Source of the DNA: an uncultured Paracoccaceae bacterium
GTDB taxonomy: Bacteria; Pseudomonadota; Alphaproteobacteria; Rhodobacterales; Rhodobacteraceae
Length of the DNA stretch: 64,000 nt
Direction of reading: 5' to 3'
Assembly: GCA_947502145.1 (NCBI GenBank)
Contig: CANMYO010000002.1
Span: forward strand, 248,001 to 312,000
Under the pieces are notes generated by a model. It was not told the origin of the DNA. It was given only the letters and a program-made list of their open reading frames with translations, and ran no database searches. The translations under genes were made by a program, and so were the position numbers. Within the stretch, counting starts at the first letter, position 1, and the number at the start of each line of letters is the position of its first letter. Below, piece by piece: positions 41,037-46,287 of the stretch.

Positions 41037-41905
41037 ATCGTGCCGCGCTTGTTCTTCCAGCGGCGGTGAACCCAGAACCATTGTTCGGGGTGTTGCGTGA
41101 CCCAATGGCCAAGCCGGGCATTCATCTCCGCCATCATCGTTGCTTGATCCGTGCGGGCAATTGGCGCCTCAATAACCACGTCAAAGCTGATCCCGTCAGC
41201 TTGGCGGATGGCAAAATAGGGGATCACCACCGCGTCAAATTTGTGCGCCAGATCGGCGGCAGAGGTTGCCGTCATCGCCGGACGCCCCAGAAAATCCACC
41301 GGGATGCCATTGTCATTGTTGACGTCAAACAGAAGCGTGCCCATGCCGCCAGCCTTCAGATGCCGGGCAAACCCGATGGTGCCCGCACGCCCCTGGGCAA
41401 AAACCGGGCCACCCCAGGACGTCATGGTTTTCGCGTAGCGAGCGTCAAAATACGCGTTTGCCATCGGCCGGTACAACCCGCCAACCGTCAGGCCCATTCC
41501 GGTCAGGACATGGCGCGGGGCCTCGTGGTTGCCAAAGTGGCCGGTGACAAAGATGACCGGGCGTTTGGCCTCGGCAGCTGCCCTGACGTGTTCAAGCCCG
41601 CCACCGCTGGGCTGTGTCCTGACCAGCCGATGATGCAGCTCCGCGTGCGAAAAATTCTCGATCAGCGTGCGACCGAAGTTGTCACAAACCCCATCCGCGA
41701 TGCGCCGGCGTGTCTTGGCACCCATATCTGGATAAATCGTCGCCAGATTGGTCTCGGCCCGTTTGCGATAGCCCGCCAGCGGACCGACGGCCCACCGCAT
41801 CGCAGCCCCCATGAACGCCACGCGCTTTTCATAGGGCAGCCGCATGGCGCCTCCAATGACCGCGTGCAGGACGCGATCGACCAACCAGTCGCCGCGATTG
41901 TTCAT
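41033..41905 (-). CDS. LpxL/HtrB-like acyltransferase
   Basis: The 290-residue protein is of the lysophospholipid acyltransferase family that adds secondary acyl chains to lipid A. The catalytic H(x4)E motif is GHFGNHE with His123 and Glu128, and WFWVHRRWK near the end is typical. The substrate could differ, since it stands alone here. Its ATG overlaps the nitrile hydratase alpha stop (41902-41905), an unexpected coupling. Confidence 0.85.
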   Translation of the reverse strand: MNNRGDWLVDRVLHAVIGGAMRLPYEKRVAFMGAAMRWAVGPLAGYRKRAETNLATIYPDMGAKTRRRIADGVCDNFGRTLIENFSHAELHHRLVRTQPSGGGLEHVRAAAEAKRPVIFVTGHFGNHEAPRHVLTGMGLTVGGLYRPMANAYFDARYAKTMTSWGGPVFAQGRAGTIGFARHLKAGGMGTLLFDVNNDNGIPVDFLGRPAMTATSAADLAHKFDAVVIPYFAIRQADGISFDVVIEAPIARTDQATMMAEMNARLGHWVTQHPEQWFWVHRRWKNKRGTI

Positions 41906-42537
41906 GGGTGTGCGGGCAGTCCGGTGCCGATCATGCTGTCCCGGGTCACAAGGCCCGCCAACCGGTCAGCCTGCCAGCTATCCGTCCCCACTGGACGGTT
42001 TGGAATGACGATGTAACGCATGTCAGCGGTGCTATCATGGACGCGAATTTCAACTTCTTTTGAAGTCGTTACGCCGAACTCTTCAAGTGTTTTGCGCGGT
42101 TCTTTCACCGTGCGGGACCGATAGGCACGTGACTTGTACCAATCCGGTGGCAACCCGAGCAGGTTGCGCGGATAGCACGAACATAGGGTGCATACGACCA
42201 TGTCGTGCAGCATCGGTGTGTTGGGCAGCGCAATCAGTTTCATCGGACCGATGTCAAACCCCATCTGACGTGTTGCGGCGCTGGCATCTTCCAGCAGGGC
42301 AGCCGCGAAGTCGGGGTCCGTCCAGTACCGTGCGACCACGCTTGCACCCATCGCCGGGTTGCGGGCATCCATCGCATCGACCTGACGGGCAATTTCGGAC
42401 GCGGTTGTGACGCCCTTTTCAATCAGGAGTTCGCGAATCGCGATTTCCATCGTTTGCCAATAGGTCAGCGGTTCATCGTTATCCTTGCGGAACGGGTGTC
42501 CCGAGGGCGACAGGTGATCGTGATGGTCATGTGGCAT
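41902..42537 (-). CDS. Nitrile hydratase alpha subunit, cobalt type
   Basis: The 211-residue protein is a nitrile hydratase alpha or thiocyanate hydrolase gamma homologue. The metal-binding claw is VCTLCSCYPR, with Cys116, Cys119 and Cys121. Thr117 rather than Ser marks the cobalt type in known enzymes. The N-terminus is His-rich. Nitrile hydratases turn nitriles into amides, while related enzymes hydrolyse thiocyanate; the substrate is not evident. The ATG at 42537 overlaps the preceding gene by 11 bases. No amidase or cobalt activator gene is adjacent. Confidence 0.9.
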   Translation of the reverse strand: MPHDHHDHLSPSGHPFRKDNDEPLTYWQTMEIAIRELLIEKGVTTASEIARQVDAMDARNPAMGASVVARYWTDPDFAAALLEDASAATRQMGFDIGPMKLIALPNTPMLHDMVVCTLCSCYPRNLLGLPPDWYKSRAYRSRTVKEPRKTLEEFGVTTSKEVEIRVHDSTADMRYIVIPNRPVGTDSWQADRLAGLVTRDSMIGTGLPAHP

Positions 42538-42796
42538 CTGCGGGCTCCAGCCAATGCGCGTAGATTTCAGCCTCAAGCGTGTCATCTGGCCGTTCCGCCG
42601 CAGGCCCCCAGATTTCCGACATGGTGAACCGGACGCGATGCAGGGGCAGGGGATCGCCGGTATGCCCGTAGGCGCGCACTTCCGGGTTCGGGAATGGGCC
42701 AAGCGTGCGTTCGATCGTGCCTGTCTTGCCACGCAGGTATGCGGGCGTGCGCACGTGACCCGGGGGCATGTAATCGCGGACCCTAACCCGGTGCAT
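42527..42796 (-). CDS. Nitrile hydratase beta subunit, C-terminal half as a separate gene
   Basis: The 89-residue product corresponds to the SH3-like C-terminal domain of nitrile hydratase beta: HVRTPAYLRGKTGTIERTLG, then HRVRFTMSEIWG and the end AEIYAHWLEPA. The ATG at 42796 overlaps the stop of the N-terminal half gene by 14 bases, in another frame. A separate C-half is known for thiocyanate hydrolase and toyocamycin nitrile hydratase. A frameshift in a single beta gene is the alternative. Confidence 0.82.
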   Translation of the reverse strand: MHRVRVRDYMPPGHVRTPAYLRGKTGTIERTLGPFPNPEVRAYGHTGDPLPLHRVRFTMSEIWGPAAERPDDTLEAEIYAHWLEPADAT

Positions 42797-43136
42797 CTGT
42801 GGCCTCGCCATAGGTTGCGCCGCGAGCTTCCACCTGCGCCATTTTCGTGGCGAGCGCGGCGGTAGAATATACCCCGGCCTCAATCAGATTCTGGTTCACG
42901 GCTGCGATCCAGCGCTCGCAATATGTCATGGTTTCAAAGGCGTCTTCGCCCATGTCCTCAAGCACACGCCGCAGGCCATCAACGGTAAAATGGCCCTTGT
43001 TTGATGCGATGGTCATCAGGGCATCAACGCGTTTCTCCCAAATCGCAAAGTCGTGCTGATCATCGGGAATAGGTCCGGCCAGCTCACCGCCCATGTCGTG
43101 CCAGCGGCGGCCATCGAATGAAGGGCTCTTTGTCAT
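42783..43136 (-). CDS. Nitrile hydratase beta subunit, N-terminal half as a separate gene
   Basis: This 117-residue protein matches the helical N-terminal half of nitrile hydratase beta. It has the HDMGG motif near residue 13, WEKRVDAL, and YCERWIAAV with Arg75 where a conserved active-site arginine is expected. It ends with its own TAG. Order N-half, C-half, alpha is continuous with overlapping ends, which argues for one complex of three subunits. Confidence 0.82.
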   Translation of the reverse strand: MTKSPSFDGRRWHDMGGELAGPIPDDQHDFAIWEKRVDALMTIASNKGHFTVDGLRRVLEDMGEDAFETMTYCERWIAAVNQNLIEAGVYSTAALATKMAQVEARGATYGEATDAPG

Positions 43137-43176: not shown

Positions 43177-44238
43177 TTAGGCCGCCTCTGCCTGATCCTC
43201 TTCGGGGGAAATCAGGGAAATGGTGCCTTCGTCAGCAAGGCCACGTATCGCCGCAGTGACCTTGTTCATCGCGGCCTCGCCGGCGGCTGTTGCCACCTTG
43301 CCCTTTTCATCCGCCTCTTCACGCATCTGACCCGCCATCCGCTGTGAGATATTGGCAAGTATATGCTCGGCACTTGTGCCCAACTCACCCCCTTCGCCCA
43401 AGGCATAGGCCAGCGCAACTGACAGATCCTCGGCATCAACGACCCGCAGGGCTGCCGGAATATCGACCGGCTTCATCCGGGATGGAATGTCAGCAAAGGT
43501 GAAAATCGCCTTGCGGACGTTCTTGGCCAACTCCTGATCGGATCCTTCAAGTCCGGTCAAAAGATCGTCGCGGGTGCTGGCCGGGCTGGAATTCAGGATT
43601 GCTCCGATCCGGTCGACGGGCGGTTTTTCAAATGCGGTAACCTGCGTCTGGCAATAATCCTCAACCAGTGCATGTCCGATCCGGTCAATGGCGGCAGGGC
43701 TGGTTTTTTCGGTCTGACTGACCGCGAATGTGATGCGGCGGGCCTGTTCGCCGGGCAGTTTGCCAAGCACCTCAGCGGCATTTTCGACGGTCAGTTTCGA
43801 AAGAATGATGGCCCCGACCTCGACGCTTTCAGCTGCGAAAATGGCAGTGATCTTGTCGAGGTCGAGCGCCAGAACGCGTTGCCAGGGGTCAGACCCCTGC
43901 TCTGCATCCAGATTTGCCTGCAGCTGCCGGGCCAGCGCGGGGGAAATATGATCCGCGAGCGTTGCAAGCGCCGCCTTTGCACCACCAGGTGCAGAGAGGC
44001 CGATGGATTCCAGAATTTCGGCAAATTCTGTCGCAACCGCGTCAACGGTCGCCCGATCCACCAATCGGATTTCACCAAGTTCCCGTGCAAGATCGGCCTG
44101 TAGACTTTCGGGCAAAGACGACAGGGCGAGCTTGTTTCCGTCACTGATCAACAGTTGGACAATCATCGCGGCCTTGCGACGGCGCGACATCTGCGACAGT
44201 GGCGCAGGTGAGGAGGGAGAGACGGGAGCAGATGACAT
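43177..44238 (-). CDS. FliG-like protein
   Basis: The 353-residue protein resembles the flagellar rotor protein FliG: a helical N-terminal part, a middle region with ILSKLTVENAAEVLGKLP, and a C-terminal VRKAIFTFADIPSRM followed by ALRVVDAEDLSVAL. The EHPQ motif of the middle domain is replaced by ESVE. No other flagellar gene is in the window, so it may be a divergent FliG paralogue. It follows the HTH-less LuxR gene by 50 bases on the same strand. Confidence 0.72.
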   Translation of the reverse strand: MSSAPVSPSSPAPLSQMSRRRKAAMIVQLLISDGNKLALSSLPESLQADLARELGEIRLVDRATVDAVATEFAEILESIGLSAPGGAKAALATLADHISPALARQLQANLDAEQGSDPWQRVLALDLDKITAIFAAESVEVGAIILSKLTVENAAEVLGKLPGEQARRITFAVSQTEKTSPAAIDRIGHALVEDYCQTQVTAFEKPPVDRIGAILNSSPASTRDDLLTGLEGSDQELAKNVRKAIFTFADIPSRMKPVDIPAALRVVDAEDLSVALAYALGEGGELGTSAEHILANISQRMAGQMREEADEKGKVATAAGEAAMNKVTAAIRGLADEGTISLISPEEDQAEAA

Positions 44239-44288: not shown

Positions 44289-44768
44289 TTAGCCGACATT
44301 CACTGACAGTTTTTGCAGCTCTTTTTTCAGTTCCGGTGACAGCGCAGAGATTTCTGCCGTCGCAACGTGCAAACGTGACACCTGCGCCTGAAGGTCGGTG
44401 ACTTCAGCATCGGTGAATTCACGATCAGCGCGTGCAAAACTCGCCAGACTACGACTGCCATCAATTTCCATGGCATGGGTGACGCCATGTTTCAGACCAT
44501 AATCCGCGGCCAAAGCCATGACGCCGTCGGGGTCATTCTTTGCCAGATCCGACCAGCGTCGCGTCCCTTCGTTCTCAAATCCCCAGGCGACGGTGGGATC
44601 ACGCATCACCAGACCATTTTGAGAATAGTAATCCGCCCAGGCCTTCGGGTAGGTTTGGAAAAGGAATGACGGCGTTGTAAAACGCACATGGAATGCCAGC
44701 GCATAGCCAGCTGGCGCTGCTTCCTTGAGCGCGGCCAGCGTCTGGCGAATATCATTTGTGGTAGTCAT
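44289..44768 (-). CDS. Autoinducer-binding domain protein without DNA-binding domain
   Basis: The 159-residue protein is an autoinducer-binding domain like that of LuxR regulators. Conserved Trp44, Tyr48, Asp57, Pro58, Trp72 and Gly95 are spaced as in the LuxR next door (Trp40, Tyr44, Asp53, Pro54, Trp68, Gly91), and both share APAGY, YGL-HGVT and the FAR-DR-F-D block. It stops before any helix-turn-helix, and the 50 bases to the FliG-like gene hold no remnant. Known truncated LuxR homologues such as TrlR block their full-length partner. It is divergent from luxR. Confidence 0.85.
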   Translation of the reverse strand: MTTTNDIRQTLAALKEAAPAGYALAFHVRFTTPSFLFQTYPKAWADYYSQNGLVMRDPTVAWGFENEGTRRWSDLAKNDPDGVMALAADYGLKHGVTHAMEIDGSRSLASFARADREFTDAEVTDLQAQVSRLHVATAEISALSPELKKELQKLSVNVG

Positions 44769-44904
44769 GGATTGCTGCTACTCGCTTTGAGGTTGCCAAA
44801 CTATCGCTGCTAGAAATACTCTTTAAACGGTTCGTGACTATGTGATGATACCGGGAACCTCGCCAATGCGATACCCATTTACGCGCCAGAACTAAGGGGC
44901 ATTT

Positions 44905-45513
44905 ATGTCGTCTTTGCTCAGCCTCGATGACGTGGGTCAACTTGCTCCGGCAGGGTATTTCATCGCGCTACGAATTGGGTTTGCCTTCCCAGTTGAAGAA
45001 ATCAACGCTCTGCCCCCGGAATGGGTCGAGCATTACACGCGCAATCGCTACATGCTTTTTGATCCTGTCATCCGCTGGGCCTATGCCCATACAGGGATTA
45101 TGGTCTGGCGTGATCTTGTTGGGGATGACCCCAAGGGCATTTTGGCGAAGGCTGAAGAATATGGCCTATGCCACGGGGTCACGATCTCCGTTTTTGACGG
45201 CAACGCGGAAGGTCAGCGATCATTCGGGTCCTTTGCCCGTAGTGACCGGGCCTTCAGCGATCTCGAAATCAAAGTGCTTGAGGCGTTTGTCAAACGCCGG
45301 CACCGTGAAATGGCCCCACCGACGAACCTAACGCAGGCAGAACTGCAGGCGCTCGGAATGGTCAAGGACGGGCTGCGTCTCAAGCAGATCGCCTTTGAAC
45401 TTGACGTGACCGAAGGGGCGGTGAAACAGCGGCTTAAGAACGCCAAAGACAAGCTTGGTGCGAACACAAGTACGCAGGCCGCAGCCATCGCTGCACAACA
45501 TGGCCTGATCTAG
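44905..45513 (+). CDS. LuxR-type quorum-sensing regulator
   Basis: The 202-residue protein has an autoinducer-binding domain (about 10-135; Trp40, Tyr44, Asp53, Pro54, Trp68) and a GerE-type helix-turn-helix (about 142-202; LTQAELQALGMVKDG, IAFELDVTEGAVKQRLKNA). It should bind the signal made by the LuxI homologue downstream. It is short for the family, mainly in the N-terminus. A terminator separates it from luxI, and its promoter faces that of the truncated paralogue. Confidence 0.92.
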   Translation: MSSLLSLDDVGQLAPAGYFIALRIGFAFPVEEINALPPEWVEHYTRNRYMLFDPVIRWAYAHTGIMVWRDLVGDDPKGILAKAEEYGLCHGVTISVFDGNAEGQRSFGSFARSDRAFSDLEIKVLEAFVKRRHREMAPPTNLTQAELQALGMVKDGLRLKQIAFELDVTEGAVKQRLKNAKDKLGANTSTQAAAIAAQHGLI

Positions 45514-45543
45514 AATCGGCACAACAGAATCGCCCGCTTTCGC

Positions 45544-45570
45544 AATTCCCCATTTTTGGGGGGTTTTTTT
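45544..45570 (+). terminator. Terminator between luxR and luxI
   Basis: CCCCA (45548-45552) pairs with TGGGG (45557-45561), extendable by two G-U and two A-T pairs, and is followed by a run of T to 45570. It suggests that luxI is transcribed from its own promoter. Confidence 0.7.
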
Positions 45571-45611
45571 ACGAGGTCTTGTGACAACTTTAGGTTGAAA
45601 TGCTATTGATG

Positions 45612-45629
45612 ACTCCTCGACAGAGGAGT
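45612..45629 (+). promoter_or_regulatory. Hairpin enclosing the luxI ribosome binding site
   Basis: ACTCCTC (45612-45618) pairs perfectly with GAGGAGT (45623-45629) around GACA. The right arm contains GAGGAG, the only good Shine-Dalgarno site, eight bases before the luxI ATG. In mRNA this would mask the site. It may also be an 18-bp protein-binding palindrome; it lacks the CTG-N10-CAG core of lux boxes. Confidence 0.65.
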
Positions 45630-45636
45630 TACGAAT

Positions 45637-46287
45637 ATGGAAAATGTCACCTTCAATCTAGCGCAAGCTCATGTTTTCGGGAGCGCTTTTTACGACTTTC
45701 TTGCCCTGAGAAAGCGATTCTTTGTGGATACTTTGGGCTGGGACATACCGCATGACGATCAGGTTGAGATGGACCAATACGACAATCCCAAAGCCTGGTA
45801 CTCGCTCGTTTTGCAAGACGGAGAGGTCATTGGCGGCGCAAGAGCGATGGCAACAACAACACAATGGGGCAGTCATAGCTACATGCTGCGAGATGCCTTG
45901 CGCGGCAAGCTGATTGATATTCCAAAGTCGGTTATGGTCGCCGATGTTGCAACGCCGGATGTCTGGGAATGTACCCGGCTGGTGATCTCGGACGACGTAA
46001 AGACCCACGCGGCGCGCAGCACTTGCCTGTCAATGATCGTGCAGGGGCTGATTGATGTCGCGGCGGACGCCGGGGCGACACAGCTGATGTCGCTGTCACC
46101 GCTGGCCCTGATGCGGGCTTTGCGTCAGTTGGGATTTGGGGCAGAGCGGATTGGCGAACCCTATCTTAATGAGGGTGACGGGCGACGTTACGCCGTCCTG
46201 TCGATGCCAGCGGAAAAATCCGTGCCTTTTGCGCCGCGCGCCACGCATCGTCCTCAGCCAACGCCAGTGCATGCGCCATCCGTTTGA
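45637..46287 (+). CDS. Acyl-homoserine-lactone synthase (LuxI family)
   Basis: The 216-residue protein has all key LuxI residues in register: Arg25, Phe29, Trp35, Glu44, Asp46, Asp49, Arg69 in GGARAM, and Glu111 with Arg114 in ECTR. Such enzymes make N-acyl-homoserine lactones from acyl-ACP and S-adenosylmethionine. Chain length cannot be read from the sequence. The C-terminus has a proline-rich tail (~25 residues). Translation is likely controlled by the hairpin over its ribosome binding site. Confidence 0.92.
   Translation: MENVTFNLAQAHVFGSAFYDFLALRKRFFVDTLGWDIPHDDQVEMDQYDNPKAWYSLVLQDGEVIGGARAMATTTQWGSHSYMLRDALRGKLIDIPKSVMVADVATPDVWECTRLVISDDVKTHAARSTCLSMIVQGLIDVAADAGATQLMSLSPLALMRALRQLGFGAERIGEPYLNEGDGRRYAVLSMPAEKSVPFAPRATHRPQPTPVHAPSV

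Follow-up and report, generated by a model that had tools for sequence, protein, structure and literature searches.

Introduction

Why should a quorum-sensing locus encode, opposite its LuxR-type regulator, a second receptor that has an autoinducer-binding domain (ABD) and no DNA-binding domain? The question is raised by a stretch of 64,000 nucleotides (the window) from an uncultured Paracoccaceae bacterium (GCA_947502145.1, contig CANMYO010000002.1, positions 248,001–312,000 of the forward strand), to which all coordinates refer. What is already known is the CerN/CerM pair of Cereibacter sphaeroides, CerN being the only studied member of this family: a receptor homologue without a helix-turn-helix (HTH), encoded two genes from cerR-cerI (PMC11655674, 2024). 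In the open-licence literature, this was the one paper found on an HTH-less receptor of the family. We assume with a probability of about two in three that the window genes form a CerN-CerM-LuxI module, in which the short protein together with an acyl-homoserine lactone (AHL) would take the CerM-type LuxR off its targets.

The three-gene locus

The short gene (44289–44768, minus strand) encodes 159 aa and the LuxR-type regulator (44905–45513, plus strand) 202 aa. Downstream of luxR lies the gene for a LuxI-type AHL synthase of 216 aa (45637–46287, plus strand). The initial annotation had placed all three genes exactly and had described the short gene as facing luxR across one gap; the two are indeed divergent, with 136 bp (44769–44904) between them. 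The Pfam scan that it proposed finds PF03472 in the short protein (E = 1.4e-15, 57.5 bits) and in LuxR (65.3 bits; cut-off 23 bits), GerE in LuxR only (33.1 bits; cut-off 23.5 bits), and PF00765 in LuxI (56.4 bits). The short protein, 37% identical to the divergent LuxR over 150 aa in the pairwise alignment, is thus a receptor paralogue devoid of the DNA-binding domain, as had been suggested.

On its other side, the short gene is followed by fliG (43177–44238, minus strand), the sole FliG_C match of its genome, which starts 50 bp beyond the short-gene stop. The neighbours of fliG at 41902–43136 were viewed by eye, and we take them to be nitrile hydratase-like subunits. Between luxR and luxI there is a weak terminator-like hairpin with a T run (45544–45572, plus strand); terminator-like sites in this region number four, against 4.2 expected from shuffles, hence without excess. 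A further luxR-luxI pair in this genome, on another contig, is of the gtaR type (L113).

Pocket, tail and fold of the short protein

The six pocket residues W-Y-D-P-W-G are identical in the short protein and the LuxR of the window. The pairwise alignment of the two is ungapped between the pocket residues up to W72 and HG 93–94, which bears out, over that range, the proposed equal spacing of the autoinducer-binding residues. Across 57 short proteins, W57, Y61, D70, P71 and W85 are present in 57/57 and G113 in 55/57. The AlphaFold2 model was computed from 53 aligned sequences, taken from the window and the fetched loci. Its domain fold is confident, with a mean pLDDT of 89.3 (60–67 in the tail) and a pTM of 0.84; its best matches in the PDB are RhlR and SdiA, with E of about 1e-8. 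The only pair of short genes that is not saturated, L041/L043, has dN of 0.027 and dS of 0.78, and as judged from this pair the short gene is under purifying selection.

The statement that the protein ends before any HTH holds insofar as a GerE domain is absent. The tail, on the other hand, still aligns with the first helix of GerE in an alignment of 53 short plus full-length proteins, L151 being invariant and L143 nearly so. The distance of only 50 bp to fliG leaves no room there for the second half, and a profile search of the 420 nt downstream of 57 short genes detected no HTH remnant, the best E being 1.4. The intergenic space was therefore correctly described as free of a remnant.

Distribution and pairing in the family

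Searches with the short protein covered 394 genomes of its family, chosen at close to one for each genus, as well as genome contigs, and yielded 80 loci. A further 40 stretches were added from other genomes, and profiles from the window proteins were run over 121 sources, the window included. Removal of identical domain sequences left 182 domain rows: 57 short (with the window protein), 58 CerM-type, 59 gtaR-type, and 4 + 4 from four Amylibacter-type loci. The Pfam scan covered 55 short proteins out of 57 (the other two have over-long reading frames); PF03472 was found in 55/55 and GerE, at E up to 0.01, in 0/55.

A profile of 55 short proteins matches in 153 of the 394 family genomes at E up to 1e-42, gtaR-type proteins among them. 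The best 55 rows, at 185.7 bits or more, are clearly of the short type and come from 55 of the 394 genomes, a lower bound since weaker rows hold more short-type proteins. The search of 385 genomes drawn from the class gave three matches: the window genome, another genome of the same family, and elsewhere a partial match that is weak (46 bits). The initial annotation had recommended examining conservation in relatives, and the outcome is positive, as all 55 of the strongest short-type matches have the same LuxR partner no more than 2.5 kb away. Conversely, 89 rows from 84 genomes were obtained with a profile of the CerM type, or 84 places once five rows coinciding with gtaR-type matches had been dropped. 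There is a divergent short-type match within 400 bp at 71 of these places and a nearby match on the same strand at 3; the other 10 were fetched, and 4 turned out to have a short gene and 6 to be without one. In all, 78/84 places are paired; both profiles derive from loci belonging to the genomes searched. None of the fetched stretches of the six unpaired genes (L169, L170 and L175–L178) has a luxI, and one of these stretches ends at a contig end. Two of the six are near fliG.

The gene next after the short gene is fliG in 29 of 54 divergent loci examined. This adjacency fits the control of motility by CerM/CerN described for C. sphaeroides (PMC11655674) and proves nothing.

Trees and the origin of the truncation

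In a FastTree analysis of the 182 rows, the short, CerM-type and gtaR-type groups are separate. IQ-TREE with 93 of the 182 rows sets the CerM-type proteins on one side of a branch with 100/95 and supports the gtaR-type clade with 96/86 and a short clade including the Amylibacter proteins with 94/97, from an alignment that is short in columns and a bootstrap that is not fully settled.

At four Amylibacter-type loci (L054, L059, L063 and L066, three titled Amylibacter and one an uncultured Rhodobacteraceae), the gene in the short-gene position encodes 201–215 aa with an HTH-like C-terminus. The GerE scores of the four proteins are 16.1, 17.2 and 19.0 bits and none, all under the cut-off of 23.5, and we do not claim the HTH-like end to be intact. 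In FastTree the four branch off basally in the short clade, and IQ-TREE groups them with one short protein, L129 (97/83). These sequences are most simply explained by an originally full-length gene whose DNA-binding domain was lost long ago, once or more; the HTH-like C-terminus of the Amylibacter-type relatives suggests that the loss is old. It was also considered whether Amylibacter had regained its HTH as a copy of that of the neighbouring CerM; this is not supported, because the HTH ends form a long-branched group of their own (100/96) on the gtaR-type side.

Relatives with a DNA-binding domain had been named as a sign of recent decay. Such relatives do occur, in 4 of 61 clade members, and the recent decay they were to indicate does not follow from them, since 57/61 are without the domain, the pocket residues are conserved, and the partner gene is missing from the neighbourhood only rarely. 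Recent decay of a LuxR copy was accordingly rejected, given the conserved pocket, the lack of a downstream remnant and GerE in 0/55.

Proposed mechanism and alternatives

According to the sections of PMC11655674 that concern this pair, CerM of C. sphaeroides binds DNA without AHL, and its contact with CerN is AHL-dependent in a pull-down (section 3.4). CerN with AHL weakens the DNA binding of CerM in vitro, and the binding is relieved in an E. coli reporter; AHL alone causes a slight weakening in vitro. Mutants in cerN and cerI lose swimming, the loss of cerM restores it, and the two proteins govern flagellar motility through CtrA. In the window, the 202-aa CerM-type LuxR would likewise be the DNA-binding subunit and the 159-aa CerN-type protein a stable signal-binding domain without DNA-binding helices. 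AHL from LuxI or another synthase would build up and be bound by the short protein, which would then join CerM through the receptor domain and bring it off its targets. The pair may thus be seen as a split receptor in which the short subunit accounts for most of the signal response. What was seen here is the domain content, the conservation and pairing, the position in the trees and the intact pockets; we infer that the window pair does as the Cereibacter pair, AHL-dependent contact and the loss of DNA binding by CerM being reported for C. sphaeroides only.

The same paper proposes that F57 in CerM lowers its affinity for AHL. W57 is kept in 56/58 CerM-type proteins and F57 occurs only in the two Cereibacter proteins, so F57 cannot be the general explanation of why CerM needs CerN. 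As the CerM-type protein of the window keeps W57 and the full pocket, it may itself bind AHL, and its logic may differ from that in Cereibacter. For a LuxR with a full pocket, the direction of control in the window is something that we infer from the studied pair.

The initial annotation had offered a different wiring, in which the short protein forms inactive dimers with LuxR, as TrlR does with TraR, and serves as a feedback brake. The locus agrees with CerN/CerM in gene order, tree and domain scores, so the heterodimer is supported by orthology, through the AHL-dependent pull-down of the Cereibacter orthologue (PMC11655674); the TrlR-like brake is not. The brake probably has the wrong sign, since CerM acts without the signal, CerN with AHL removes it from DNA, and the loss of cerN abolishes the motility output with no enhancement (PMC11655674). 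The architecture is alike in outline, TrlR is a precedent (PMC11655674, PMC13043044), and a LuxR with all six pocket residues, in a clade that nearly always keeps W57, could be a normal AHL-dependent activator whose circuit is damped by inactive heterodimers. Against this, the partner of the studied orthologue is active in the apo form, and TrlR, 88% identical to TraR in PMC11655674, is a recent copy, whereas the window clade is old and its short protein only 37% identical to the partner. We regard such a brake as unlikely; the short protein of the window is more likely a signal-dependent releaser.

Were the short protein to titrate AHL merely as a sponge and contact no partner, a pocket conserved across the clade would be expected, and it is found. 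A sponge would hardly have to be the near-obligate neighbour of one LuxR clade, even where the fetched stretch has no luxI (e.g., L171 and L182), and the finding in C. sphaeroides that CerN contacts CerM in an AHL-dependent way (PMC11655674) speaks against it as well, which makes this explanation improbable. Lower still is the probability of a decaying duplicate without function: the C-terminal truncation and the four relatives with an HTH-like C-terminus could be read in this way, but there are 57 distinct intact short proteins with conserved pocket and tail, and dN/dS is low in the usable pair. Release of the CerM-type LuxR by the AHL-bound short protein therefore appears to be the best reading.

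The element before the short gene and the luxI leader

A putative element of 17 bp, ACTCGCTTTnAGGTTGC (44780–44796, plus strand), adjoins the short-gene start. It is defined by conservation in the divergent gaps, 29/59 of which exceed the 99% null (27/59 in leave-one-out), and in 28 of those 29 its spacing to the short gene is fixed. The window copy is the only perfect match in its own genome. No genome-wide enrichment was detected, with 42 matches at up to two mismatches vs. 39 for the reversed control; the one-mismatch match sits in L160, a locus without visible link. An operator common to the short gene and luxI was not supported (within-genome agreement 101 vs. 101.9 permuted, fraction 0.69), and a sigma-54 promoter reading of the element was weighed by eye and dropped.

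The luxI gene of the window is preceded by a 9-pair hairpin that contains its Shine-Dalgarno sequence (45610–45631, plus strand) and a GANTC site (GACTC, 45611–45615). Folding of 48 window-type luxI leaders gave a mean z of −2.69, with z below −1.5 in 34 and the Shine-Dalgarno sequence paired in 39; for 48 gtaI-type leaders the values were +0.23, 1 and 22. The leader set omits three Cereibacter/Thioclava-type leaders, three loci without a Shine-Dalgarno-bearing start, and duplicate loci. An uninterrupted stem of at least six pairs is present in 19/51 window-type luxI leaders, 2/49 gtaI-type leaders (one being a duplicate of a CerN locus) and 7/120 other genes. Covariation in the leaders is above all 500 shuffles (0.232 vs. 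0.152), a result that related rows can give without structure, and RNAalifold found no consensus in the same 48-leader alignment. The hairpin model R1 does not recognise the window's own leader. When it was run on eight genomes picked from among its own members, its sole match (E up to 0.1) was the luxI leader in 6/8; the leader was missed in 2/8. The leader of a same-genus relative (L114) folds weakly (−1.9 kcal/mol) with the Shine-Dalgarno sequence unpaired, and in L045, L116 and L130 (3/48) this sequence is in or near a loop. Rfam gave no useful match, only three below threshold and none at the luxI leader.

GANTC is present in 27/48 window-type leaders, compared with 6.8 in shuffles and 4/48 gtaI-type leaders; 23 of the 27 sites lie 22–26 nt before the luxI start, N being C, T, A or G. 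TTAACA is found in 22/48 window-type vs. 1/48 gtaI-type leaders, 20 of them at 53–55 nt. In many relatives, a TTAACA box is followed by GANTC and the Shine-Dalgarno hairpin, a combination rare at gtaI-type genes; the window leader has GANTC and the hairpin and is devoid of TTAACA. The leader repeat is a candidate RNA, DNA operator or methylation site. CtrA sites are predicted at luxI2/R2 of Dinoroseobacter shibae, with CcrM discussed, in the relevant part of PMC6473078, and GANTC sites are described as few at ctrA promoters of this order (Rhodobacterales) in that of PMC8116508. Nothing on such a luxI leader was found in the open-licence literature.

A wider scheme would be an ancient, family-wide split-receptor quorum system with a two-receptor AHL logic, the HTH-less subunit responding to the signal on behalf of a DNA-binding partner that keeps its own pocket, and the synthase gated separately by the GANTC and Shine-Dalgarno-hairpin leader. 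We hold this scheme to be speculative and, taken as a whole, doubtful. If it is true, GANTC, a CcrM-type site, and the hairpin leader would link the making of the signal both to the cell cycle and to control at the level of translation.

Novelty and significance

The available sections of PMC11655674 present CerN/CerM as a feature of one species and give synteny for gtaR alone, and a 2026 review (PMC13043044), in its available text, names TrlR and not CerN. New here are the breadth of CerN-type genes in the family, their near-obligate pairing with a CerM-type LuxR, the Amylibacter-type relatives, the conservation of W57, and a luxI leader that combines GANTC with the hairpin and is seldom seen before gtaI-type genes. 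Strong short-gene matches in at least 55/394 family genomes, with the same partner adjacent in all 55, make truncated receptors testable as general signal-dependent switches in many species; the Amylibacter-type proteins offer a natural comparison, being the same gene with an HTH-like end. If the wider scheme above is correct, the system would be ancient and family-wide and no peculiarity of Cereibacter.

Comparison with known systems

The closest system is CerN/CerM. Two fetched loci provide the comparison through sister species of C. sphaeroides: L102, recorded under the title Luteovulum azotoformans, and L090, from Cereibacter ovatus. In both, cerN is divergent from cerM, followed by cerR and cerI, which is the order given for C. 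sphaeroides in PMC11655674. The Pfam scores of L102 (cerM 47.5, cerR 126.5, cerN 60.7) are close to those of that paper (47.5, 128.1 and 66.1), CerM and CerN are 29.5% identical in the Cereibacter loci (31% in PMC11655674), and both CerM proteins have F57, in agreement with it. The short proteins of L090 and L102 fall inside the same clade as that of the window, which is 36% identical to CerN of L102 over 158 aa; the LuxR is 38% identical to CerM of L102 over 203 aa. In both systems an ABD protein without HTH is encoded divergently from a LuxR that belongs to the same clade, near a synthase locus, and the pocket and the tree clades are the same. With PF03472, no GerE domain or remnant, a divergent CerM-type LuxR, a place in the clade of Cereibacter CerN and the six pocket residues, the window protein looks like a member of an old, conserved CerN-type family. 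The differences are that luxI of the window directly follows the cerM-type gene without cerR between them, that its CerM-type protein has W57 in place of F57, that fliG adjoins its short gene, and that identity is just 36–38%. Since cerR stands between cerM and the synthase gene in Cereibacter, and the leader of the latter is of a different type, luxI is not equated with cerI as an orthologue.

GtaR/GtaI of R. capsulatus and LuxR1/LuxI1 of D. shibae have a related ABD, and the window genome contains one pair of this type (L113). Their regulator differs in being a full-length LuxR with a weak GerE match in a separate clade, and no short partner was seen beside L113. TrlR of Agrobacterium tumefaciens, known here from its description, resembles the window protein in that a LuxR-type protein without a DNA-binding domain pairs with a full one, TraR (PMC11655674, PMC13043044). 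TraR, unlike CerM, requires AHL for DNA binding (PMC11655674), and while TrlR is 88% identical to TraR, the window protein, at 37% identity to the adjacent LuxR, is no near-identical recent copy of its target.
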